Assembly: GCA_029213065.1 (NCBI GenBank)
Contig: JARGPH010000028.1
Span: 1-64,000, forward strand
Length of the DNA stretch: 64,000 bases
DNA from: Verrucomicrobiales bacterium
GTDB lineage: Bacteria; Verrucomicrobiota; Verrucomicrobiia; Verrucomicrobiales; DEV007
Reading direction: 5' to 3'
Part shown: in pieces, positions 32,338-56,422 of the stretch
Position numbering within the stretch: the stretch's first letter is position 1
How the letters are laid out: each line of letters opens with the position of its first letter
The notes under the pieces: generated by a model
What the model was told of the DNA's origin: nothing
What the model saw: the letters and a program-made list of their open reading frames with translations, nothing else
The model's database searches: none
Translations under genes and position numbers: made by a program

Positions 32338-32795
32338 CGCGTCTCCGATCCATTCTCTGGTCTCTCGGAACGGTCTGCCTCGCCGCAGCCGTGTCCTATC
32401 TGGTGGCCCGCGGGACTGTGAAGCGATCCGAAGCACCATCGGCGCACGAGCATTCGGAACAGGGGTTTCACGCCTGGTTGCACGAGAATCTCGCGATCAC
32501 GGCGGAGCAGGAGGCGATCCTGCATCCTCATGAAGTTGCCTTTGAAAAGGATCGCAATCAAATCCGCGCGGAGATCGAATCGTCGGGTCGCAAACTGGCT
32601 GCCGCGATCCGTGCCTTTGATGCCGATTCCGCTGAAGTGACTGCAGCCCGCGAAGAACTCACGAAATGGCAGGGGGAATTGCAGGAGGCGACTTTGAACC
32701 ATTTTTTCGCAATGAAAGAGCATCTCACTGAGGAGCAGGGCGCGAAGCTCCTCGGGTGGACACACGACAGTATCGTTCATGGACATCACGATTGA
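32334..32795 (+). CDS. cnrX: CnrX-type periplasmic Ni/Co sensor
   Basis: The 153-residue protein has an N-terminal membrane anchor (about 8-26) and an all-helical periplasmic domain of the Metal_resist/ZraP-CnrX group. The five metal ligands known from Cupriavidus CnrX (His42, His46, Glu63, His119, Met123) are all found here at exactly +4: His46 and His50 in FHAWLH, Glu67, His123 and Met127 in NHFFAMK. The match in spacing makes nickel or cobalt sensing likely. A His-rich C-terminal tail (VHGHHD) is additional. It overlaps the ECF sigma gene by 17 bases. Confidence 0.85.
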   Translation: MTRLRSILWSLGTVCLAAAVSYLVARGTVKRSEAPSAHEHSEQGFHAWLHENLAITAEQEAILHPHEVAFEKDRNQIRAEIESSGRKLAAAIRAFDADSAEVTAAREELTKWQGELQEATLNHFFAMKEHLTEEQGAKLLGWTHDSIVHGHHD

Positions 32796-33402
32796 AGATT
32801 TTGAGTTCGGGAGGACCGATCGCACCGACCTGCTTTCGCGATCGTTTTCGGAAGCGCACGACGACCGGCTCGCCAGCGCTGCTGCGGCCGGTGATGACGA
32901 GGCGTTTTGCAAGCTGGTCGAGTTGCATCAGGAGCGCGTTTTCCACTTCTGCTTTCGTTGGCTCCGGAACAGCGAAGACGCCCGGGAAGCGGCTCAGGAT
33001 ACCTTCATTCGCGTCTACGAAGCGATCCCCCGTTATGAAAAGCGCGGCAAGTTCACGACCTGGCTGTATCGCATTGCCTTGAATCTTTGCCGTGATCATT
33101 TCAAATCCAAAGCGGCCCGCCAGCGACGGGCCACTCAGTCCTTCGGCGATGTTCAGGAGCCGTCAATCTGTCCGCTCGCCCGCCCTGATGAAACGGCGGC
33201 AAAGACGGATGAGCATGCACGCATGCAGGAGGAAATCATGGCGTTGCCGGACAAACTTCGTGCGGCGGTGGTGCTTTTCGCTCTCGAGGGCCTGAGCCAG
33301 AGCGATTGCGCCGCGATTCTGAAGTGCTCGGTCCGTGCTGTCGAAGGCCGACTCTATCGGGCGCGGGAGATTCTGAGAGTGGCGGCCGAAAGCGAATCCT
33401 GA
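32779..33402 (+). CDS. cnrH: ECF RNA polymerase sigma factor, CnrH-like
   Basis: The 207-residue protein has sigma region 2 (about 40-110, with VFHFCFRWLRNSEDAREAAQ and KFTTWLYRIALNLCRDH) and region 4 (about 155-203, with ALPDKLRAAVVLFALEGLSQ and RAVEGRLYRAREIL). There are no regions 1 or 3, as in ECF sigmas. It follows the anti-sigma and sensor genes in the same order as cnrYXH, with overlapping reading frames. It would be released when the sensor binds metal, and would then transcribe its own operon and probably the uptake genes downstream. Confidence 0.88.
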   Translation: MDITIEDFEFGRTDRTDLLSRSFSEAHDDRLASAAAAGDDEAFCKLVELHQERVFHFCFRWLRNSEDAREAAQDTFIRVYEAIPRYEKRGKFTTWLYRIALNLCRDHFKSKAARQRRATQSFGDVQEPSICPLARPDETAAKTDEHARMQEEIMALPDKLRAAVVLFALEGLSQSDCAAILKCSVRAVEGRLYRAREILRVAAESES

Positions 33403-33485
33403 CTTTTTTCCTTTTTTTGTGGGGTGGGTAGGGGAGTTGTCGTTTCAAGTCGACGGGGAGTGGTTATTCCTCCCTTTCTCGACTC

Positions 33486-34412
33486 ATGAAAATCTCGTTT
33501 TTGGCTCCTTTTGCCGTTATTGCCTGTTCTGTTTTCCTCGCCGGATGCGGCGATGTCCCGCAGGCAAATGCGGTGGAAAAGCCTTCAGGCGGGGCTCCTC
33601 AAGTGTATTGCTCGAACTATCCTCTGTTCTATTTCACGGAGCGAATCGGCGGTGATCTGCTAGAGGCGAAATTTCCTGTCCCGGCGGATACCGATCCAGC
33701 CTTCTGGAAGCCTTCGGAAAAGGATCTTCTCGCGATGCAATCCGCTGCTCTGCTCGTCACGAATGGAGCGACCTATGAGAAGTGGCTCACCACTGTGAGT
33801 CTTCCGCAGAGCCGGATTCTCGATACCTCGAAGTCTTTTAAGGGAGAGTACATTGCGAGCAAATACACGCTGGTGCATACCCATGGAGGTGGTGATGCGC
33901 ACTCTCATGCGGGGACCGAATTCTCCACCTGGATGGATTTTCAGCAGGCGATCTGGCAAGCGGAGGAAATTCGCGATGCTCTGATTCGTCTCATGCCGGA
34001 GAAAGCCGCGACGCTCGAGGAGAATTTTGATCGTCTCGCAATCGATCTTGAGAAGCTTCATCTCGACTTCAGCTTTGTCGGGCCGGGGATCGATCTGCAC
34101 CCCCTCGTGGCGTCGCACCCTGTTTATTCCTATTTTTCGAGACGCTACAAATTGAACATCGAGTCGGTCCACTGGGAGCCGGAGACCGTCCCCGATGCGG
34201 CGGCACTCGATGAATTGAAAACGATTCTCACAGCCCATCCTGCGAAATGGATGATCTGGGAAGGTGAGCCGGTTGCAGAGTCGGTGGCGCTTCTCAAAGA
34301 TATGGGTTTGGAAAGCATTGTCATCGACCCCTGCGGCAATCGTCCCGCGGCAGGTGATTTTCTTTCAGTCATGAAGCAGAACCTCGCGAACCTGCGAAAA
34401 ATCAGCCTCTGA
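33486..34412 (+). CDS. ZnuA-like metal-binding lipoprotein with altered ligand set
   Basis: The 308-residue protein has a lipoprotein signal (VFLAGC, lipidated Cys21) and the cluster A-I fold of ABC metal-binding proteins (AALLVTNGATYEKWL; AEEIRDALIRLMP; SYFSRRYKL). A His-rich loop HTHGGGDAHSH lies at 131-141. Of the usual ligands, His211 and Asp281 are kept. The first His is replaced by Ala72 (DPAFWKPS) and the second by Ser147 (FSTWMD). No ABC permease or ATPase gene is nearby. It may hand a metal to another carrier, or store it. It lies 83 bases after the sigma gene and 41 bases before the TonB receptor. Confidence 0.8.
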   Translation: MKISFLAPFAVIACSVFLAGCGDVPQANAVEKPSGGAPQVYCSNYPLFYFTERIGGDLLEAKFPVPADTDPAFWKPSEKDLLAMQSAALLVTNGATYEKWLTTVSLPQSRILDTSKSFKGEYIASKYTLVHTHGGGDAHSHAGTEFSTWMDFQQAIWQAEEIRDALIRLMPEKAATLEENFDRLAIDLEKLHLDFSFVGPGIDLHPLVASHPVYSYFSRRYKLNIESVHWEPETVPDAAALDELKTILTAHPAKWMIWEGEPVAESVALLKDMGLESIVIDPCGNRPAAGDFLSVMKQNLANLRKISL

Positions 34413-34453
34413 GTGAGTTCAGCTCCTGTCTTCCCATTTCACTTTTTAATCTT

Positions 34454-36661
34454 ATGAATCGTTTTTATTACGCGTCCTCGTGCGCCCTTCTATTCAGTGG
34501 CCTCCTTCAGGCTCAAGAGCTTGAAACGGCGGATCCCTCTCCTGCCATTCTCGATGACGCTGTGCCTCAGGCTCAGGTTTCAACAACCGATGTGAGCACG
34601 CTCGAGGCCACCGTGGTTTCTTCGACGCCAACGCGCCCGCGCCCTGCTCCGACCCGATCGGTCACAGGTGTCTCTGCTCCGACCGTAACGAATTTTGAAG
34701 CAGTCGTGTCGCCGGGAAAAGCCGAGGATCTCACCGCGATCGCCCCCAGTGCCTCGAGTGGTCGCGCGAGCAATGCGGAGCTGATGGATCGTCCGTTTTT
34801 GCGGCGCGGCGAGCTTCTCGAAGTCGTGCCCGGCATGATCGTGACGCAGCACAGCGGAGGCGGTAAGGCGAACCAGTATTTCCTGCGCGGGTTCAATCTC
34901 GATCACGGGACAGACTTTGCCATTTTCGTCGACAATATGCCGGTGAACAATCGCAGTCACGGCCACGGTCAGGGTTATGCGGACATCAATTTCCTGATCC
35001 CCGAACTGGTTGAGGAGCTTGAGTATGTCAAAGGCCCCTACTTTTCGAGATTCGGAGATTTCAGCACCGCCGGTGCGGCGCGGTTTCGTCTCTACCGTGA
35101 GCTTCCGCAGGGGATCGCTTCGTTCACAATCGGATCGGATAATTTCTATCGCGGGTTGCTCGCCGATTCGGTCGAGGCCGGCGACGGCATCGCGACGTTT
35201 GCCCTCGAATACAACTACTACGACGGCCCCTGGGCGATGCCGGATGAGCTCAATCGCTGGAATGGTTTCTTCCGCTACGTGATCGGTGATGAGGACGATT
35301 TTGCGTCGATCACCTTGATGGGATTCGACTCGACCTGGAATGCAACCGATCAGGTGCCAAGCCGGCTCATCGACAGTGGCGGGATTGATCGACTTGGATT
35401 TGTTGATCCCAGCGTCGGAGGTGATTCCTATCGCTTCAGCCTTTCCGCCGATTTCAGAAAAACGGGAGATTCCGGCATCACGGTCGGTTCTGTCTATGCC
35501 GGTAAATATCAGCTCGATCTCTTCTCAAACTTCACCCTTTTTCTCGATGATCCTGTGAACGGGGATCAATTCAATCAGTACGATGACCGGTGGTTTGCCG
35601 GCGCGGCGATTGATCATACCTTTGATGAGTTGACGATTCTGGATCGCGATTCAACGCTCTCGGTTGGCCTGCAGACCCATCACGATTTTATCAATGATAT
35701 CGGTCTCTACAAAACGAGTCAGCGGCAGCGTCTCTCCACAGTGAGAGAGGACGAAATTTACGAAGCGAGCTTCTCCGCGTATTCCAATCTCGAGGTGCCG
35801 TGGACCGATTGGCTGCGTACTCAGGCGGGGATCCGGGGGGATCTTTACCACTTCGATGTCGACGCCAAATCCCTCGCCGCGAACTCCGGTTCGGCGTGGG
35901 ACGGGATTGTCAGTCCGAAGGCCGGGATCGTTCTCGGTCCCTGGAATGAAACGGAATTCTACCTGAACGGCGGATTCGGATTTCACAGCAACGACGCCCG
36001 TGGGGTTACGATCGCACAGGATCCGCTCACCGGTGATCCGCTTTCCGGGATCCCCGGGCTGGTCCGAACCAAAGGCGCTGAGGTCGGCGTTCGCACTCAA
36101 ATCATCCCGAACCTGACTTCCAGCCTCGCGCTCTGGTATCTCGAAAGTGAATCCGAGCTCGTCTACGTCGGTGACGCCGGAAATATTGAAGCCGGTGGTG
36201 CCAGCGAGCGATACGGGATCGAATGGTCGAACTACTGGAAGCCGGAGGATTGGCTCACGATCGATACCGAGTTCACGGTGACGGAAGGTCAGTTTGTTGA
36301 AACCGGTGAAGAGATTGAAAACTCCGTTCCGATGTCGTTTTCCGGCGGAATCACTTACGGAAATGCTTCGGGACCGTTCGCTTCGATCCGGGCCCGCTAC
36401 TTTTCCCCGCGCCCTCTCAATGGAGACGGTAGTGTCGAATCCAAAGATGCTCTCCAGATCAATTCCCGCCTCGGGTATCGTGTCGAAGGTGACTGGGAAG
36501 TGGCTCTCGAGTTCATCAACCTGCTCGACTCAAACGACAACGACGTCGAGTACTTTTACACCTCGAGACTTCCCGGTGAAGCGGCTGCAGGAATTGAGGA
36601 TACGCACTTGCACCCCTACGAGCCGCGTCAGGTTCGTGTCAGTGTGACGAAGCACTGGTAG
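34454..36661 (+). CDS. TonB-dependent outer-membrane receptor
   Basis: The 735-residue protein has a signal peptide (about 1-20). A Thr/Pro-rich linker follows, then a plug domain (LLEVVPGMIVTQHSGGGKANQYFLRG; FVDNMPVNNRSHGHGQGYADIN) and a 22-strand-type barrel ending in an aromatic residue (SVTKHW). The plug's SHGHGQG loop could bind metal. With the upstream metal sensor, sigma factor and metal-binding lipoprotein, the most likely cargo is a metal ion or metal chelate imported with TonB energy. The substrate is not shown by sequence alone. Confidence 0.9.
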   Translation: MNRFYYASSCALLFSGLLQAQELETADPSPAILDDAVPQAQVSTTDVSTLEATVVSSTPTRPRPAPTRSVTGVSAPTVTNFEAVVSPGKAEDLTAIAPSASSGRASNAELMDRPFLRRGELLEVVPGMIVTQHSGGGKANQYFLRGFNLDHGTDFAIFVDNMPVNNRSHGHGQGYADINFLIPELVEELEYVKGPYFSRFGDFSTAGAARFRLYRELPQGIASFTIGSDNFYRGLLADSVEAGDGIATFALEYNYYDGPWAMPDELNRWNGFFRYVIGDEDDFASITLMGFDSTWNATDQVPSRLIDSGGIDRLGFVDPSVGGDSYRFSLSADFRKTGDSGITVGSVYAGKYQLDLFSNFTLFLDDPVNGDQFNQYDDRWFAGAAIDHTFDELTILDRDSTLSVGLQTHHDFINDIGLYKTSQRQRLSTVREDEIYEASFSAYSNLEVPWTDWLRTQAGIRGDLYHFDVDAKSLAANSGSAWDGIVSPKAGIVLGPWNETEFYLNGGFGFHSNDARGVTIAQDPLTGDPLSGIPGLVRTKGAEVGVRTQIIPNLTSSLALWYLESESELVYVGDAGNIEAGGASERYGIEWSNYWKPEDWLTIDTEFTVTEGQFVETGEEIENSVPMSFSGGITYGNASGPFASIRARYFSPRPLNGDGSVESKDALQINSRLGYRVEGDWEVALEFINLLDSNDNDVEYFYTSRLPGEAAAGIEDTHLHPYEPRQVRVSVTKHW

Positions 36662-37377: not shown

Positions 37378-40161
37378 ATGAAGATCCCCTGGCAGAAAAT
37401 TTTACCCAACGGAGGCCGGCTCTTTCTCGGTGGCGGTGCGAGCGTCCCTTATCTTCTTGTCGATCAACTCCTCGCAGAGGCGAATTCGTTCAAGGATGTC
37501 GAGTGGATGCATATCCACACGCTGGGGGCGTTGCCCTGGCTGGATCCCCGCTACCGGGGGCATTTCCGGACGAATACCTTTTTTCTCACCCGGAGCATGT
37601 GGGATGCGGTGAATGAGGGCTATGCCGATTACACCCCCAGCCCGATGTCGGATATTCCACGGCTCTTTGATAAGGGAGTGATCAAGTTGGATGTCGCTCT
37701 CATTCAGGTGAGTCCTCCCAACGAGGATGGCATGGTTTCACTCGGCGTGAGCACCGATGTTCTCGCCGCTGCGATTCGGAACGCACGAACGGTTGTGGCG
37801 CAGGTAAACCGCAACATTCCGAGAACTCACGGCGATTCCCTGATCCCTCTCAGCGCGATCGATTATCAGGTCGAGCATGACACCCCGCTGATGACGATGT
37901 TGCCGAAGCAGCACAGTGAGCGTCATCGAAAAATTGCAGGGTATGCTGCGCAGCTCATCGACGATGGATCAACGATTCAGGCGAGCCTCGGCGATTGCCC
38001 GCAGACGGTTCTTGAAGCGCTGAACCACAATCACAGGGAACTGGGGATTCATACGGGGTGTTTTACCGATGCGATGATGGCGCTGGTGAAGTCGGGAGTG
38101 GTCACGAATCGTAAAAAGAAATTTCAGCAGGGCGTCACCGTGGCGACTCACTGCCTCGGGACACAGAGTCTCTATGATTTCCTCGATAACAATCCCGACA
38201 TCGAGATGCATAGCTCGGAGTGGACCAATGCGCCGCACCGGATCAGCAAACACCCTAACATGGTCGCCATCAACGGGGCCCGGGAGGTTGATCTCACCGG
38301 TCAGGTTGTGCGGGATTCGCGTGGTCATCGCTTCTACGGGGGGATCGGAGCGACTCAGGATTTCATTCGTGGCGCCGTCGGAAGTGAAGGCGGTCGCCCT
38401 ATCATTGTCCTCACCTCGACGCGAAACGGGGGCAGTGCTTCGCGGATCGTAACGGGCCTCTCCTCCGGTAGCGGCGTCTGCACTTCGCGGGGGGATGTGC
38501 ACTACGTCGTCACCGAATTCGGCGTCGCAAACCTTGTTGGTCAGAGCATTCGCCAACGGGTCCTGCGCCTCACCGAGATCGCCCATCCCCGCTTTCAGGA
38601 ATCGTTGCTCGAAGGGGCGCGGGATCAGGGTTGGATTCCCAAAATCTTCGGTGCGACCTCAGGCCATATCCGCGACAACGACGACGAAATCGAGATCAAG
38701 AAGGTCGATTTCTCCGGGATCAAATACGTCGTCCGCCCTCTTCACCCCAGCGACATGCGATCGGTCCAGGAGTTTTTCTATGCGCAGGATGAGGAGACGA
38801 TTCGCCTTCGTTACGGATATGCGATGCCATCCCTCGATGAGACGACCGCCTACCGGATGTCCTCGGTTGATCAAACGCGCGACCTCGCCCTCGGTGTCTT
38901 TTACCGCAACCACTTGAGAGAAGATCTCCGCGCTGTCGGCCGATTCTATGTCGACCCGCGTGGAGACACGGCTGAGATTTCATTTCTCGTTCACGAGAAC
39001 GCACGACGTAAAGGGATCGCTCAGTATCTCCTCAATGAAATGGCGCTGATTGCCAATGAGCGTGGCATCGTCAAATTCTGGGCCAGCGTTCTCAAGCGGA
39101 ATGTGGCCATGGCCCGTCTCTTTGTGAATTTCGGCGCAGAGCGGAAAAGCATCCCCGGCGAGGACAGCGATGAATTCTGGCTCGATATTGCGGCTTTGTT
39201 AGAAAATAAATCAAAACTGGCCGGAGCCGGCATCGGAATTTACGCTTCGCCGGAACTGTTAAAACATGACACCGGGCCCGGTCATCCCGAGTCGGCAAAA
39301 CGATATGAGGCGGTCCTCGAGGCTCTCGCAACCGTTCCCGGTGCCAAGTCCCGCTGTGACCGTGTCGCGACAGCGGAGGAGGTTTTGCTCGTCCACTCCG
39401 CGAGTTACCATGATCTCGTTCAAATCGATATTCACGAATTCCGGGAAACCCTGAGAACGGGGGACACCGCGATTTGTGAGGATTCCTACGAGGTGACAAT
39501 GAAGGCCCTCGGCTGCGTTCTTCAGGCCGGAGACGATGTCATCTCAGGTGCTATTACCCGCGCCTTCTGCGCGGTGCGTCCTCCGGGGCACCATGCCACG
39601 GTGGATCGAGGAATGGGATTTTGTATTTTTAATCACGTCGCCATCCTCGCCCGCTACCTGCAGAAAAATCATGGGATTGGCAGGGTCGCGATTCTCGATT
39701 GGGATGTTCATCACGGGAACGGCACGCAGGATATCTTCTACGAGTCAGGAGATGTTTTCTATGTCTCGACACATCAGGAGGGTGTCTATCCCAATACCGG
39801 TTTGAAGAATGAGACCGGGGCTGGAGACGGAATCGGAACGACTTTGAATTTTCCACTTCCTCTGGGAACACAGGATGCAGCTATGATTGCGACGTGGGCG
39901 ACAGCGCTCGAAAGTGTCGAAGCCTTCGCTCCTGACGTGATTCTTGTCTCGGCCGGTTTCGATGCCGCGACCGAAGACCCTATGGCTGATTTTCTGATCT
40001 CAATCGACGGATTCGGCACCCTCACCCGGATGGTGAGAGAAACGGCCGATCGGGTCTGTGGAGGGAAACTGATTTCTGTGATGGAAGGGGGATACCACCC
40101 TCCAACCTTGGCTGCCTGCGTATTGCGCCACATCGAAATCCTCGGAGGCGATTTCAGGTAG
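37378..40161 (+). CDS. CoA-transferase / GNAT acetyltransferase / histone-deacetylase-type triple fusion
   Basis: One 927-residue polypeptide holds three enzymes. Residues about 1-440 form an acetyl-CoA hydrolase/4-hydroxybutyrate CoA-transferase module, with candidate catalytic Glu380 in VVTEFGVANL. Residues about 450-605 form a GNAT acetyltransferase with acetyl-CoA loop R543-R-K-G-I-A548. Residues about 618-927 form an arginase-fold deacetylase with all key residues: His738-His739 (RPPGHHA), zinc ligands Asp776, His778 (DWDVHHGNGTQ) and Asp862 (GFDA), and Tyr906 (GGY). It could control acetyl-CoA level, lysine acetylation and deacetylation together, or make and break one acetylated metabolite. 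There is no signal peptide, so it is cytoplasmic. Confidence 0.93.
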   Translation: MKIPWQKILPNGGRLFLGGGASVPYLLVDQLLAEANSFKDVEWMHIHTLGALPWLDPRYRGHFRTNTFFLTRSMWDAVNEGYADYTPSPMSDIPRLFDKGVIKLDVALIQVSPPNEDGMVSLGVSTDVLAAAIRNARTVVAQVNRNIPRTHGDSLIPLSAIDYQVEHDTPLMTMLPKQHSERHRKIAGYAAQLIDDGSTIQASLGDCPQTVLEALNHNHRELGIHTGCFTDAMMALVKSGVVTNRKKKFQQGVTVATHCLGTQSLYDFLDNNPDIEMHSSEWTNAPHRISKHPNMVAINGAREVDLTGQVVRDSRGHRFYGGIGATQDFIRGAVGSEGGRPIIVLTSTRNGGSASRIVTGLSSGSGVCTSRGDVHYVVTEFGVANLVGQSIRQRVLRLTEIAHPRFQESLLEGARDQGWIPKIFGATSGHIRDNDDEIEIKKVDFSGIKYVVRPLHPSDMRSVQEFFYAQDEETIRLRYGYAMPSLDETTAYRMSSVDQTRDLALGVFYRNHLREDLRAVGRFYVDPRGDTAEISFLVHENARRKGIAQYLLNEMALIANERGIVKFWASVLKRNVAMARLFVNFGAERKSIPGEDSDEFWLDIAALLENKSKLAGAGIGIYASPELLKHDTGPGHPESAKRYEAVLEALATVPGAKSRCDRVATAEEVLLVHSASYHDLVQIDIHEFRETLRTGDTAICEDSYEVTMKALGCVLQAGDDVISGAITRAFCAVRPPGHHATVDRGMGFCIFNHVAILARYLQKNHGIGRVAILDWDVHHGNGTQDIFYESGDVFYVSTHQEGVYPNTGLKNETGAGDGIGTTLNFPLPLGTQDAAMIATWATALESVEAFAPDVILVSAGFDAATEDPMADFLISIDGFGTLTRMVRETADRVCGGKLISVMEGGYHPPTLAACVLRHIEILGGDFR

Positions 40162-50905: not shown

Positions 50906-52375
50906 TCAGGCCTCGCCGGGCATGCGACGGTAGATGCGGCTGCGGTTGACCTGGAGAAGACGTGCGGCCTCGGCGACGTTGCCGCCGGTCACACGGAGCG
51001 CACGGCGGATCAGAAAGCGTTCGGCTTCCTCGAGTGGCATGGGGATCTCATCTTCGGCTACCGCCTTGGAGGCAATCGCTTCGCCACCCGACTCAGGCGC
51101 GGTGGACCCGCCAGTGAGCACGAGGTGATCGCGCCTGATCGTTTTCCCGCCGCTCAAAATGAGGGCACGTTCGAGTGTGTTCTTCAGCTCGCGAATGTTC
51201 CCCGGGAACGAATGCGATTGGAGAAGGGCAAGCGCGTCGCAATCGAGCGCGGGTGGCGCGGCGCCCATCTCATTGGCAAAGAGGCGCAGAAAGTGCTCGG
51301 CGAGAAGTGGCAGGTCCTCCGGGCGCTCACGGAGCGGCGGGGTCTCTACCACATAGCGAGCGAGACGGTAGTATAAGTCCGCCCGAAACTCGCCGGCTGA
51401 TACCTTTTCTTCGAGAGTGGCATTGGTGGCGCTGACGACCCTGACATCGACCTTTATCGGCGACCCGGCACCGACGGGAGTGACCTCGGAATCCTCCAAC
51501 ACGCGAAGGAGCTTCGCCTGCAAGGTCGCAGGCATGTCCCCGATCTCATCGAGGAAAAGAGTTCCCCCATCAGCTAACTCAAACGCGCCTTTCCGCTCGG
51601 TGGCGGCACCCGTAAAAGCCCCTTTCACATGACCAAAGAAAGTCGATTCCGCGAGCGCTTCCGGAATGGCGACACAGTTGATCGCCACAAACGGCCCGCC
51701 GGCTCGCGGGCTTTGATGATGGATGGCACGGGCGACGAGCTCCTTGCCGGTGCCACTCTCCCCCGTGATAAGCACACTCGTTCTTTCAAAACGGTGGAGG
51801 CGGGTGATATCCGAAACGACACGGCGCAGATGCTTGCTCTCGCCGACGAGGCTGTCGAGCCCCCATCGCTCGGCCTCACGGTCGGCCAGCGAGCTGAGCC
51901 GATGGTCGGCGCGCTCCCGGAGACGTTCGGCTTTCTGGCGCTGCCGCATCTCGGCTTCGAGTTCAGCATTGCGCGTTTGGAGCTCTCGCGTGAGTTGGCT
52001 GATCCGGAGGTGGGTCGCCACGCGAGTCACGACTTCGGGGGCGCGAAAGGGTTTGTGAAGATAGTCAACGGCTCCGACGCGAAAGCCCTCGACGATTCCA
52101 GCGGTGTCGTCTTTGCTTGTAATGAAGATGACAGGGATATCGCGGGTGACGTCTTCCCGCTTGAGCATCCGGCAAACAGAGTAGCCATCGTGGCCGGGCA
52201 TGACAACGTCGAGCATGATGAGATCCGGAAGTGCCTGCTCGGCGATGCGGAGGGCGTCGTGACCAGTGGAGGCGGTGAGGACTTCATACCCGGCGGGCTC
52301 CAGTGCTTCCGCGAGGAGGGTGAGTCCTGTCGGGGAGTCGTCTACGATAAGAATTCGGCTGCGAGGTTGGCTCAT
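50906..52375 (-). CDS. sigma54-dependent response regulator (NtrC family)
   Basis: The 489-residue protein has a receiver domain (about 7-120; VDD, phospho-acceptor Asp in IMLDVVMP, Lys in HKPF). A coiled linker follows, then an AAA+ domain (about 175-400): Walker A GESGTGKE, the sigma54-contact loop GAFTGA, Walker [13 protein letters not shown] Fis-type helix-turn-helix closes it ([20 protein letters not shown]). The intact GAFTGA loop shows it activates sigma54 promoters. Its start overlaps the kinase stop by 4 bases (52372-52375). The adjacent operon's promoter and activator site lie just after its stop, so that operon is its probable target. Confidence 0.93.
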
Positions 52376-55002
52376 ACGACTTGGATCTGCGCGACGATTC
52401 GCTGGATGGTTTTCATATCGTACGAGGCGAGATAGCCACCGAGGTGCTGGGCGAGACGTTCTTCATTCTGCCCGAGGGCGCTCATCTCTTTGAAGCAGGA
52501 TCTGAGAACGGTGGCGCTGTGGAGCTCGGCGGCCATAGCGAGCCGATCGGCGAGTTCGGCGGGCAAAGCAACCTGAGCGAGATCGAGTGACGCCGGTCGA
52601 GGAGTGTCGGGACTCGGCTCGTCATAGTCGAAACTGACGTCGAGTAAATCCTGCAAACACGCATAGATCCTCTCGGCACAGAATGGTTTCGTTACGAGAG
52701 CATCACACCCGGCATTGAGAAAGCGATCGCGCTCGTGAGAGAGCGCGGAGGCGGAGGTCGCGACTACGGGAATACTGGCACGCTCCGCATACTTGAACAC
52801 GTCGCGGATAGACTCCAAAGTTTCCGCATCCGACAGCAGGAGGTCCATAAACACAATCTGTGGGCGAGAGACACGGACGACCTCGAGTGCCTGGCGGGCG
52901 CTATCGGCCAACACGACATCCACACCGATCTCCGAGAGCATGGTGGAGAGGATCTCCCGATTCGTTGCGATGGGATCGACGACGAGCGCTCGGAGAGTCG
53001 TCCCCGGAGTGAGGGAGCGGATGGCCGGCTTTGCGTTGGCAGGAGCCTCACCCTCGACGGAATCTCTGAGCGAAATGGTAAAGGCGAAAGTCGAGCCGTG
53101 ACCGGGAGCTGATTCCACTTCGAGCCGCCCGCTCATAATTTCAACTTGTCGCCGGGCAATGGCAAGCCCGAGCCCGGTTCCTCCAGTACTGGTCTGGCCT
53201 TTTACCTGTTGGAAAGGATCAAAAATACGCTCGAGGTCGGACTCGCTGATCCCAATCCCGGTGTCGGCCACGACGAACCGCCACTTCCCCTCTCCATCCT
53301 GCGAAACACGCAGCGTGATTGTCCCCGCATCCGTGAACTTGACGGCATTCGAGAGAAGGTTGATCAGCACCTGACGGAGTTTGACCTCGTCACCTCGAAC
53401 CAGGAGAGATGACTTCGACGAAGGGACATCAATGATCAGTCCAAGACATTTTTCTTCGCATGGGTGCTGGAACAGGCGACCGAGATCCGTGACAAGCCCC
53501 TGAAGATCAAACTCGACCGGCTCGATCTCCATCCGTCGGGCATCGATTTTCGCGAGGTCCAGAATCTCATCGATGAGATGGAGAAGGTGTTCACCATTTT
53601 TCGAAATCGTGGTGACAGCGTCGCGATGAAAGGCGTGAAGTCCGTGGTCGCGGGCGAGGATCTCCGAGTAACCGAGAATACCATGCAGAGGCGTCCGGAT
53701 TTCGTGACTCATGTTGGCGAGGAACTCGGATTTCGCCTGGTTTGCGGTCCTTGCCTCGGCTTCCGCTTGTTGGCGCACTCCGACCTCACGCTGGAGTTCG
53801 AGCGCGCGCCGCGTGCTGCTCGACAAGTGGCCGACCAGGATCATCGTCAGGAGGATTCCACACCCGGCCGTAGCCCACACTGGCCCGTAGGCTGATGCAA
53901 CTGGCAGGTCGCCAGACGCGGTGAACTCAAGGTTCCACTCGCGTCCAGCCACACCGATCACTTCGTGCCAGACCGGGCCGCCGGAACGCCGCTCACCAGG
54001 TTGCTCGTAAAGGGTCGAGCCGTCTGAATCCCGGACCGTGAGAATCACGCCGCGGCTGCCCGACTCGGGCAGCGAGAGTCCAATGAGATCACCAATGCGG
54101 AACACAGCGGTGGTAAATCCAACCAGCGCAAGCCTCCGTTCCTCGACCGTCGAACCGGGGTTTTCGTAGAGCGGATGATAAACGACAAAGCCTTGTTGGG
54201 CGCCCGGTTCCTGGGCCAGCCGGATCGGCGCGGTCGCCCGGGGTTCCCCTGTATCCCGGGCACTTTCAAGGGCGCTGCGACGGCGGGGCTCCGAGTTCAC
54301 GTCGAATCCGAGCGCAGCCGCATTTCGCGAGAGGCTTTCCAGAAAATAGACCGGAAAATATTCGAGGCGCTCTCCCGCCGGGACCAGAGATCCGTCCTCT
54401 GCCTCCTCGGTGAACGTGAATTTTTCGAACCCTTCGTCGACGGCGCGTTGCTCCCACGCCGACCTCTCGGAGCCCGGCACCCGCGGATCCCAGGCGAGCG
54501 CCTGGAGTTCCGGCTGACGATCGAGCGCTTGCTTGACGAAGGTTCCGAACTCACCGCGGGTCAACGTGTCCTGTGATTGAAACAATGCGGCCAACGAGTG
54601 AAGCGACTCCATCGAACGAAGAATCTGCGCTCGCATCACCGCAACTCGATCTTCAGCGCGGACACGAACCTCGTCGCGCAAATCCCGCTCCCCCACGTTC
54701 CAAAAATGCCAGGCGATGATCGTCGTCAGGCAGAGGCCTCCGGCGAGGGCCGCATATATCGGCAGCGAGGTCGGGGAACGGGTTGAGGGTGTGGGGGAAA
54801 CGTCGATTCGCGGAAGATCAGCATTCAATGTGCCAAGACTCTCCTGCTGACCCGGCGAAGGCGCTCGAATCGCTGCCTGAACTTTCCTGACGATCCCGTC
54901 TGTATTCAGCTGTGCTTTCTCTGACTGACGGAACATGATTTTCATTTTCTTCGACCACATGGGGAGGACACCCAGTTTGAAAGGAGAGGCGAGCGAGGGC
55001 AT
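52372..55002 (-). CDS. hybrid sensor histidine kinase with CHASE-type periplasmic domain
   Basis: From the Met at 55002 the product has 876 residues. It has two membrane segments (about 90-105 and near 375) around a periplasmic domain of the CHASE type ([31 protein letters not shown]). A HisKA box ([20 protein letters not shown]) and a HATPase ([33 protein letters not shown]) follow. A C-terminal receiver (phospho-acceptor in IVFMDLLL; Lys in VTKPF) and a helical tail complete it. It presumably senses the nitrogen compound or N status and signals to the coupled response regulator. A downstream Met at 54960 is another possible start. It lies 43 bases after the allophanate hydrolase gene. Confidence 0.9.
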
Positions 55003-55045
55003 GTGATCTCTGTCTCGCAATTTCGCTTTTTCAAAACTTCCGCAG

Positions 55046-56422
55046 TCAGCCCGCCCCTCCGGGCAGGGGTTGAAGGGAGTTCCGCTCACCCATTGCCAGA
55101 TCAATCAGCGCCTTATCGCTATCCCGCGGCGCGATCCATGTCAGCCCGAAAGGCAATCCTGCTTCAGTCTCACCCGCAGGCGCGGCCACCGCACAGAGAT
55201 CCAATAAGTTCATGAAGTTCGTGTAGTAGCCGAGTTGCGAGTTCGGACCAATCGGGTCGGCCTCCATCTCGGCGAGAGTGGGAAATCCGCCCGCCGTCGG
55301 CGTTACGATGGCCGCAATCCCCTCCCAGACGGCTTCACTTTCACGGCGCAGGTCTGCCAGCTGATACATCGCGGCAAAGGCTTCGCAGGCGGTATTCTGA
55401 ATGCCCCCCTCGATGATACTCCGTGTCGCCGGAAAGAAATCAGCGGCGTTCGTCGCCAGGAAATCTTTGAGGACTGTGGTCCGTTCGGAGACCCACGGAC
55501 CTTCGTAAAGGAGACGCGCCGCTTTGAGAAAAGGCTCAAAATCAACTTCGACACAGTCCCAGCCTTTGCTTTGCAAGTCCGACAATGCCTTCTCCCAGGT
55601 TGTCTCGTAACCCGCATCACCGAAGAACATCAGTTGCCCGGGTTTGGGAATACCCAGTTTGCGCGAAGCGGGTCGTGCACGGTCAACCGTAGGGCGGGAG
55701 TAGCTATCCGACGCATCATACCCTTCGGCGATCTGAAGTGTCGTCCGCCCGTCAGCGCCATTCAGTGTAAAAATCGAAACACAGTCCAACGTGCGACAGG
55801 CAGGCACAACGCCGCTGGTACTGAGGCGTCCGCAACTGGGCTTGATGCCCCAGAGTTTGTTAAACATTGCCGGTACCCGACCGGAGCCGGCCGTATCGGT
55901 GCCGAGGGAGAAACTGGCGAGACCTTCGGAGAGCGCTACGGCGGAGCCGGAACTCGAACCGCCGGGCACGCGATCCGGCGCCAGCGGATTGCGCGGCACA
56001 CCGTAGGGCGACCGCACACCAACCAGACCCGTCGCGAATTGATCCAGGTTCGTTTTGCCTAGAGGAATCGCGCCCGCCTCGATCAGTTTTTCTACGACAG
56101 GTGACGAAACTTCGGGCGTGTAGGCATACGCAGGACAAGCCGCCGTTGTCGGGACCCCTGCCAGATCGATATTATCTTTGATCGCGAAAGGGATGCCGTA
56201 GAGAGGAAGAGTCGCAGGCGCAGCGGATTCGAGTTTGAGCAAGTAGGGCTCCAGCTCTTCCAGACTGAGCCGATAAATCCAGATGTCCGGATTGTGGATC
56301 GATTCGGCACGTTTCCACAAGGCCTCACAAAGTTGCCGGGGCGTAAGCTCGTTGTTCTGATAGAGCTTCCTAAGATTTTGAATGTCTAGCGAGAGGTTCA
56401 CAATAAGGGGTAGAGGCGTCAC
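55046..56422 (-). CDS. allophanate hydrolase, amidase domain only
   Basis: With the GTG at 56422 the product has 458 residues. This start has a GGAG five bases upstream; a GTG at 56401 is the alternative. It is an amidase-signature enzyme with the Lys-cisSer-Ser triad Lys82 (FAIKDNID), Ser156 (PGGSSSGS) and Ser180 ([11 protein letters not shown]), spaced exactly as in AtzF (Lys91, Ser165, Ser189 by recall). [29 protein letters not shown] and [13 protein letters not shown] are allophanate hydrolase hallmarks. The C-terminal domain of the 600-residue enzymes, which aids the second decarboxylation/ammonia step, is missing. It would convert allophanate from biuret hydrolysis. Confidence 0.88.

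Follow-up and report, generated by a model that had tools for sequence, protein, structure and literature searches.

A single gene in the window, by which we mean the whole 64,000-nucleotide stretch analysed, joins a family I CoA-transferase (CoAT) domain that lacks its catalytic glutamate, a Pat-type GNAT acetyltransferase domain and an HDAC-type deacetylase domain in one chain. Our preferred reading is that the product may be a reversible lysine-acetylation switch for acetate activation, with writer, eraser and a pseudo-CoA-transferase sensor on the same polypeptide. It is a tentative reading, to which we give a little less than an even chance.

The gene is one open frame of 927 codons that runs without interruption. 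Pfam placed AcetylCoA_hydro at residues 11–171 (1e-21), AcetylCoA_hyd_C at 261–413 (2.5e-55), Acetyltransf_1 at 516–586 (2e-7) and Hist_deacetyl at 636–921 (6.6e-87). The frame and the Pfam matches thus agree with an earlier note on this DNA, which had read it as a single protein with CoA-transferase, GNAT and HDAC modules. We considered and rejected an internal start from which the HDAC would be translated on its own: the sole start codon in the linker is a TTG (codon 607), and no Shine-Dalgarno-like sequence was seen for it. Structure models were used for the fold assignment of individual domains only. The full-length model (26 rows) had a pTM of 0.44 and was poor in the GNAT and in the C-terminal parts of the CoAT; hence, the arrangement of the domains relative to one another is not interpreted. 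A model of residues 1–605 (5 rows) had a pLDDT of 72, good enough for fold assignment. Rfam at gathering scores gave nothing in the window.

Features of the three-domain gene, with positions in the window
Feature	Position	Strand	Basis
Three-domain gene: probable pseudo-CoA-transferase, Pat-type GNAT, HDAC-type deacetylase	37378..40161	+	927 aa; ORF, Pfam, same fusion in 11 other genomes
Family I CoA-transferase domain, residues 1-420	37378..38637	+	Pfam; PDB 4HB-CoA transferases by sequence and by fold
Gly227, at the catalytic-Glu position	38056..38058	+	Alignment
His258, companion switch (Phe in Glu-type relatives)	38149..38151	+	Alignment
Arg312, companion switch, 28/28 (Ala in most Glu-type relatives)	38311..38313	+	Alignment
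Glu380, V-T-E-x-G motif, conserved in both groups, not the nucleophile	38515..38517	+	Alignment
GNAT domain, residues 441-605 (approximate, by alignment), Pat family	38698..39192	+	Pfam, sequence and fold comparison
Glu533, conserved GNAT glutamate in the AE[IV]xF motif (putative base)	38974..38976	+	57/57 conserved; role by analogy with Pat enzymes
Acetyl-CoA pyrophosphate loop R543-R-K-G-I-A548	39004..39021	+	Sequence, alignment
HDAC-type deacetylase domain, residues 619-922	39232..40143	+	Pfam 6.6e-87; AF2 pLDDT mostly >90; Foldseek
RPPGHH motif, residues 734-739, with catalytic His738/His739	39577..39594	+	Sequence, alignment; motif meaning from PMC11532494
Zinc ligands Asp776 and His778	39703..39711	+	Sequence, alignment
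Zinc ligand Asp862	39961..39963	+	Sequence, alignment
Catalytic Tyr906 (EGGY motif)	40093..40095	+	Sequence, alignment

The source of the gene is a 5.9-Mb draft genome (96% complete) in 80 contigs, and relatives carry the genes split. Both facts would favour an assembly artefact that joined separate genes, the very error that the earlier note had named as fatal to its reading. When the architecture was searched for, as that note had proposed, it turned up as one gene in 11 more genomes of independent assembly (G024, G030, G317, G042, G040, G019, G046, G102, G086, G254, G391), which with the window genome makes 12, all of Verrucomicrobiota. The G040 fusion sits on a single 3.5-Mb contig, and homology runs unbroken through the domain junction in the other fused genomes. 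Because the fusion recurs in this way, it is not an assembly join; the artefact was rejected and its probability is negligible. The copies in G024 and G030 are 78% and 72% identical to the window protein. No relatives were found in viral contigs.

A split version is present in 14 other genomes and on a truncated contig (L005), where a CoAT-GNAT gene of about 620 aa is followed by an HDAC gene on the same strand. The two open frames overlap or are separated by a few bases. G387 has its HDAC 2 kb from the CoAT-GNAT gene, with an ORF between them, and in G409 no HDAC was found near the CoAT-GNAT gene. The CoAT-GNAT-HDAC system is therefore not unique to the window genome but belongs to a clade with fused and split versions, whose closest named members are Akkermansiaceae (Verrucomicrobiota).

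Alignment of the CoAT domain showed that the column of the family I catalytic glutamate holds Gly in all 28 members of this clade and Glu in 37 of 37 relatives; we refer to the two states as Gly-type and Glu-type. The family I nucleophile is Glu249 in RipA (PMC3180442) and Glu238 in the 4-hydroxybutyrate CoA-transferase 3GK7 (PMC11659651), and the Glu of the HTE motif in the solved 4-hydroxybutyrate CoA-transferases aligns with Gly227. The overall fold is that of the family, the 1–605 model matching 2oas with Z 44. Besides the switches at 258 and 312, Gly replaces Ser at 321 in the Gly clade as compared with the Glu-type, and the CoA-contacting Gln (column 326) is missing from most Gly-clade members.

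The earlier note had held that all three modules keep their key residues, with Glu380 as the candidate catalytic residue of the CoA-transferase. This stands for the GNAT, whose loop R543-R-K-G-I-A548 is where the note put it and fits R-x-x-G-x-[GA], and for the HDAC, in which His738/His739, Asp776, His778, Asp862 and Tyr906 are all in place. It fails for the CoA-transferase. Glu380 was rejected as the nucleophile, since its motif is common to Glu-type and Gly-type proteins and the catalytic Glu aligns with 227. The idea that this part makes or uses acetyl-CoA is likewise unsupported as it was put, because the family I nucleophile is missing.

As judged from the alignment, then, the gene product is not a canonical CoA-transferase, the catalytic Glu being absent, and the domain has probably lost canonical transferase activity. 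ThnP also has Gly at the catalytic-Glu position, yet is an active intramolecular CoA-transferase (PMC11659651); therefore, a dead CoAT is probable only. Pairwise dN/dS against the nearest fusions was 0.04–0.13 where computable, with synonymous sites near saturation. Compared with G024, the CoAT is better conserved (85%) than any other domain (70% for the HDAC). Hence the domain is unlike a decaying leftover, and it is under strong purifying selection despite the lost Glu. It may be noted that at site 258 a conserved Phe has become His in the Gly clade and that Glu269 of ThnP lies at the same distance from the lost Glu if the alignment is ungapped; both Glu-less families have changed this site.

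In sequence comparison the GNAT domain came closest, among solved chains, to S. lividans Pat (3e-10), E. coli PatZ and M. tuberculosis Rv0998; the first two acetylate acetyl-CoA synthetase (Acs). The best fold matches of the modelled domain were PatZ of E. coli and 4u5y, the complex of S. lividans Pat with Acs, at Z 22, other GNATs scoring about 18. Sequence and modelled fold thus agree that the GNAT is Pat-type. The NCBIfam Pat family (NF058543) matched the GNAT only below its own cut-off. Pfam found no synthetase domain on the window protein, where the CoA-transferase stands instead, and for want of that domain the protein falls outside Pat type I/II as defined.

The HDAC domain model matched bacterial HDAHs at 1.5–2 Å (Foldseek). 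Its best matches are lysine deacetylases, and by structure it is nearer to cluster 1 than to AcuC. Among the linked HDACs, the catalytic His and Asp residues are kept in 32 of 32, and Tyr906 in all 31 rows with a residue there. The RPPGHH and EGGY motifs were tied to robust deacetylation in a survey of bacterial deacetylases (PMC11532494). Genome G000 has a second HDAC, which stands alone (contig C73, 92043-92951; L002) and shares about 50% identity with the fused domain; a copy like it is present in most of the searched genomes of the genus.

When 57 CoAT-GNAT proteins were placed on a tree, those with Gly fell into a single clade (100/100). The Gly state thus arose once, and the 28 Gly-type loci count as one event. 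Fused and split states are interleaved on this tree: four changes are required to explain the fused label, of which three or more fall on well-supported branches, and split-gene relatives surround the L137/L141 fusion. The HDACs linked to the Gly clade likewise form one clade as against the stand-alone HDACs (100/99). The distances among CoAT-GNATs and among HDACs were correlated (r = 0.93), and none of 9,999 permutations gave a value as high. At 27 of the 28 Gly-type loci the HDAC is fused, adjacent or, at one locus, 2 kb away. CoAT-GNAT and HDAC have been inherited together in both the fused and the split state. Glu-type CoAT-GNAT genes also adjoin HDACs, of other lineages (L159/L164/L166; L192/L193; L004, 2.5 kb away); at L197 the HDAC is further off than at L159/L164/L166. 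Four HDAC lineages, that of the Gly clade included, are linked to CoAT-GNAT.

The window gene has no informative neighbours. An operon around it was considered and rejected: an OmpA-family gene lies upstream on the opposite strand and a purple-acid-phosphatase-like gene downstream on the same strand, neither of them informative. Further upstream (32779-36661), genes for an ECF sigma factor, a ZnuA-like periplasmic metal-binding protein and a TonB receptor stand in a row, which suggests a metal-uptake unit. On the minus strand at 50906-55104, adjacent genes for a CHASE-domain hybrid histidine kinase and a sigma-54 response regulator form a complete-looking two-component system.

More was learnt from the loci of relatives. 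At about 26 Glu-type loci a gene for an ADP-forming acyl-CoA synthetase stands directly upstream of CoAT-GNAT (L157-L159, L162-L167, L169, L171-L175, L194-L198, L200-L204). This enzyme has an inactive relative in the synthetase that is joined to the GNAT in Pat. An SHTG motif, which we take to be the catalytic-His motif, is kept in 13 of the 13 such synthetases examined. The two neighbours are possibly an un-fused version of the Pat architecture. A gene for Acs (acs) is nearby at seven Glu-type loci, and at L159, L164 and L166 synthetase, CoAT-GNAT, HDAC and acs are grouped together. Around another Glu-type gene (L153, 9868-14327), ORFs resemble by eye a MeaB-like GTPase, a second CoA-transferase and biotin-dependent decarboxylase subunits, perhaps of a succinate-propionate pathway. 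Adjacency of acs is confined to some Glu-type relatives and is lacking in the window and at the other Gly-type loci searched. At three Gly-type loci, which belong to two separate lineages, the neighbours are ackA and pta, for acetate kinase and phosphotransacetylase (L145 11921-15414, L146 3395-6756, L147 3132-6454).

The window genome has a single acs match, with the motif PKTRSGK, and gave no SIR2 (sirtuin) match and no acetate kinase match. In Gly-type genomes, the PxxxSGK acetylation motif is present in 24 of the 24 full-length Acs examined. Since Acs is widespread (308 of 384 genomes of the class), its co-occurrence with the system is weak evidence. A complementary distribution with sirtuins was also looked for, but no clean pattern emerged, SIR2 being found in 11 of 26 Gly-type genomes.

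These results lead us to the following proposal. The GNAT domain would add acetyl groups to protein lysines as the writer, and the HDAC domain of the same chain would remove them as the eraser. The likeliest substrate would be Acs. The CoAT fold probably no longer moves CoA between acids; it would most likely bind acetyl-CoA, CoA or a carboxylate and so bias writer versus eraser, as is thought for the inactive acyl-CoA synthetase domain of Pat, which binds acetyl-CoA (PMC8556138). By analogy, such a switch would unite AcuA and AcuC (PMC13121692) with the inactive sensor domain of Pat. We infer the writer and eraser activities from the intact catalytic residues, the Pat-type kinship of the GNAT and the genomic linkage; the direction of control of the switch is our inference too. 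The same three grounds favour the earlier view that one polypeptide both adds and removes acetyl groups. That view had left protein acetylation and a small metabolite side by side as what is controlled, and control of protein acetylation is the better option: a protein substrate is quite likely. Ligand sensing by the CoAT is only somewhat more probable than its absence, and Acs as the target has about an even chance. Against the explanation we weigh the single origin of the Gly state, the activity of ThnP, the commonness of Acs in the class, the absence of acs beside any Gly-type gene seen, the uninformative neighbours of the window gene, and the sirtuin that 11 of 26 Gly-type genomes also have. 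In published assays on BsAcsA, cluster 1b HDACs showed no deacetylation (PMC11532494), which, with the cluster 1 likeness of the present HDAC, also counts against our best explanation.

Other readings have to be set beside this one. The CoAT may still be an enzyme of the ThnP type, which moves CoA within one dicarboxylic acid, or a hydrolase that uses His258 or another residue, the GNAT and HDAC regulating its pathway. ThnP is a Cat1-like family I enzyme with intramolecular activity, and its proposed alternative residue, Glu269, is 31 residues on from the Gly, as is His258 here if there is no gap (PMC11659651); the strong conservation of the CoAT would also suit an enzyme. No pathway genes occur at the Gly-type loci examined, however, the fixed link to acetyl-transfer enzymes points to regulation, and the CoA-contacting Gln is lost in most of the clade. 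We consider an active enzyme unlikely, at somewhat over one chance in five.

Slightly less probable still is a switch whose target is not Acs but some other protein, such as a different acyl-CoA ligase, Pta or a regulator, or a whole set of proteins. Pat enzymes, like HDACs, can act on more than one substrate (PMC8556138, PMC11532494), and it is ackA-pta, not acs, that Gly-type loci adjoin. On the other hand, Acs acetylases are the nearest kin of the GNAT, acs is found near Glu-type relatives, and every full-length Acs examined has the acetylation motif. Finally, the GNAT and HDAC might acetylate and deacetylate a metabolite, such as a polyamine or an amino sugar. Some polyamine-deacetylating bacterial enzymes of the HDAC fold carry a hydrophobic PIS gate (PMC11532494), and the gate of the present domain, P868-M869-A870, is hydrophobic too and so compatible with polyamines. 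The PEG polyamine gate is absent from its sequence, though, the GNAT is Pat-type, the best matches of the HDAC are lysine deacetylases, and no polyamine or sugar genes were seen beside the annotated loci; we consider small-molecule metabolism rather improbable.

In the lysine-acetylation switches known from bacteria, writer and eraser are separate. Published classifications of bacterial GNAT acetyltransferases give synthetase, cyclic-AMP, ACT, NADP or tandem-GNAT partners, and neither a CoA-transferase nor a deacetylase is among them (PMC8556138, PMC6456759). In a limited search of the open-access literature, no description was found of this fusion or of a bifunctional acetylase/deacetylase. 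This protein could be the first known case in which one chain both writes and erases lysine acetylation of proteins, and a family I CoA-transferase that turned acyl-CoA sensor through loss of the catalytic Glu would set its direction. We hold this claim with slightly less confidence than the switch itself. If the lysine-acetylation switch is as proposed, the clade would add a regulatory domain drawn from another CoA enzyme family, in parallel to the inactive synthetase of Pat, and having writer and eraser in one chain would fix their stoichiometry. The change to Gly227 offers a clean, testable prediction of how a metabolic enzyme becomes a sensor.

Among known systems, the type I/II enzymes Pat/PatZ/YfiQ (S. 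enterica Pat, E. coli PatZ, S. lividans PatA) share with the window protein a Pat-type GNAT by sequence and fold, and in both the GNAT is joined to a CoA-metabolizing enzyme fold without its catalytic residue (PMC8556138). The partner in Pat is an NDP-forming acyl-CoA synthetase, whereas here it is a family I CoA-transferase, and a deacetylase is also fused. AcuA and AcuC of the Bacillus acu operon, which act on AcsA, likewise pair a GNAT as writer with a classical zinc deacetylase as eraser and are connected with acetate metabolism (PMC13121692). They are separate proteins, with AcuB (Bateman/ACT) as energy sensor, unlike the one chain with a CoA-transferase domain described here, and the present HDAC is closer to cluster 1 enzymes than to AcuC. 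ThnP, likened to our protein by its published description, has the family I fold and the same Gly, but is a stand-alone enzyme of a naphthalene degradation operon (PMC11659651). The 4-hydroxybutyrate and butyryl-CoA:acetate CoA-transferases (2oas, 3gk7, RipA) resemble the CoAT domain in fold and overall sequence; they differ in the catalytic Glu, replaced here by Gly, and at positions 258, 312 and 321.

The Glu-type CoAT-GNAT proteins of Verrucomicrobiota and Lentisphaerota (L148-L175, L192-L204, L004) have the same domain order and are homologous, and some adjoin an HDAC gene. Unlike the Gly-type, they keep the catalytic Glu, their HDACs come from other lineages, and most of the distant ones stand beside the gene for an ADP-forming acyl-CoA synthetase. 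Opposing modifying activities on one polypeptide have a precedent in AceK, the isocitrate dehydrogenase kinase/phosphatase, which differs in that it acts by phosphorylation and not acetylation, and with which we claim no homology. By analogy, the window protein may work like Pat plus AcuC.
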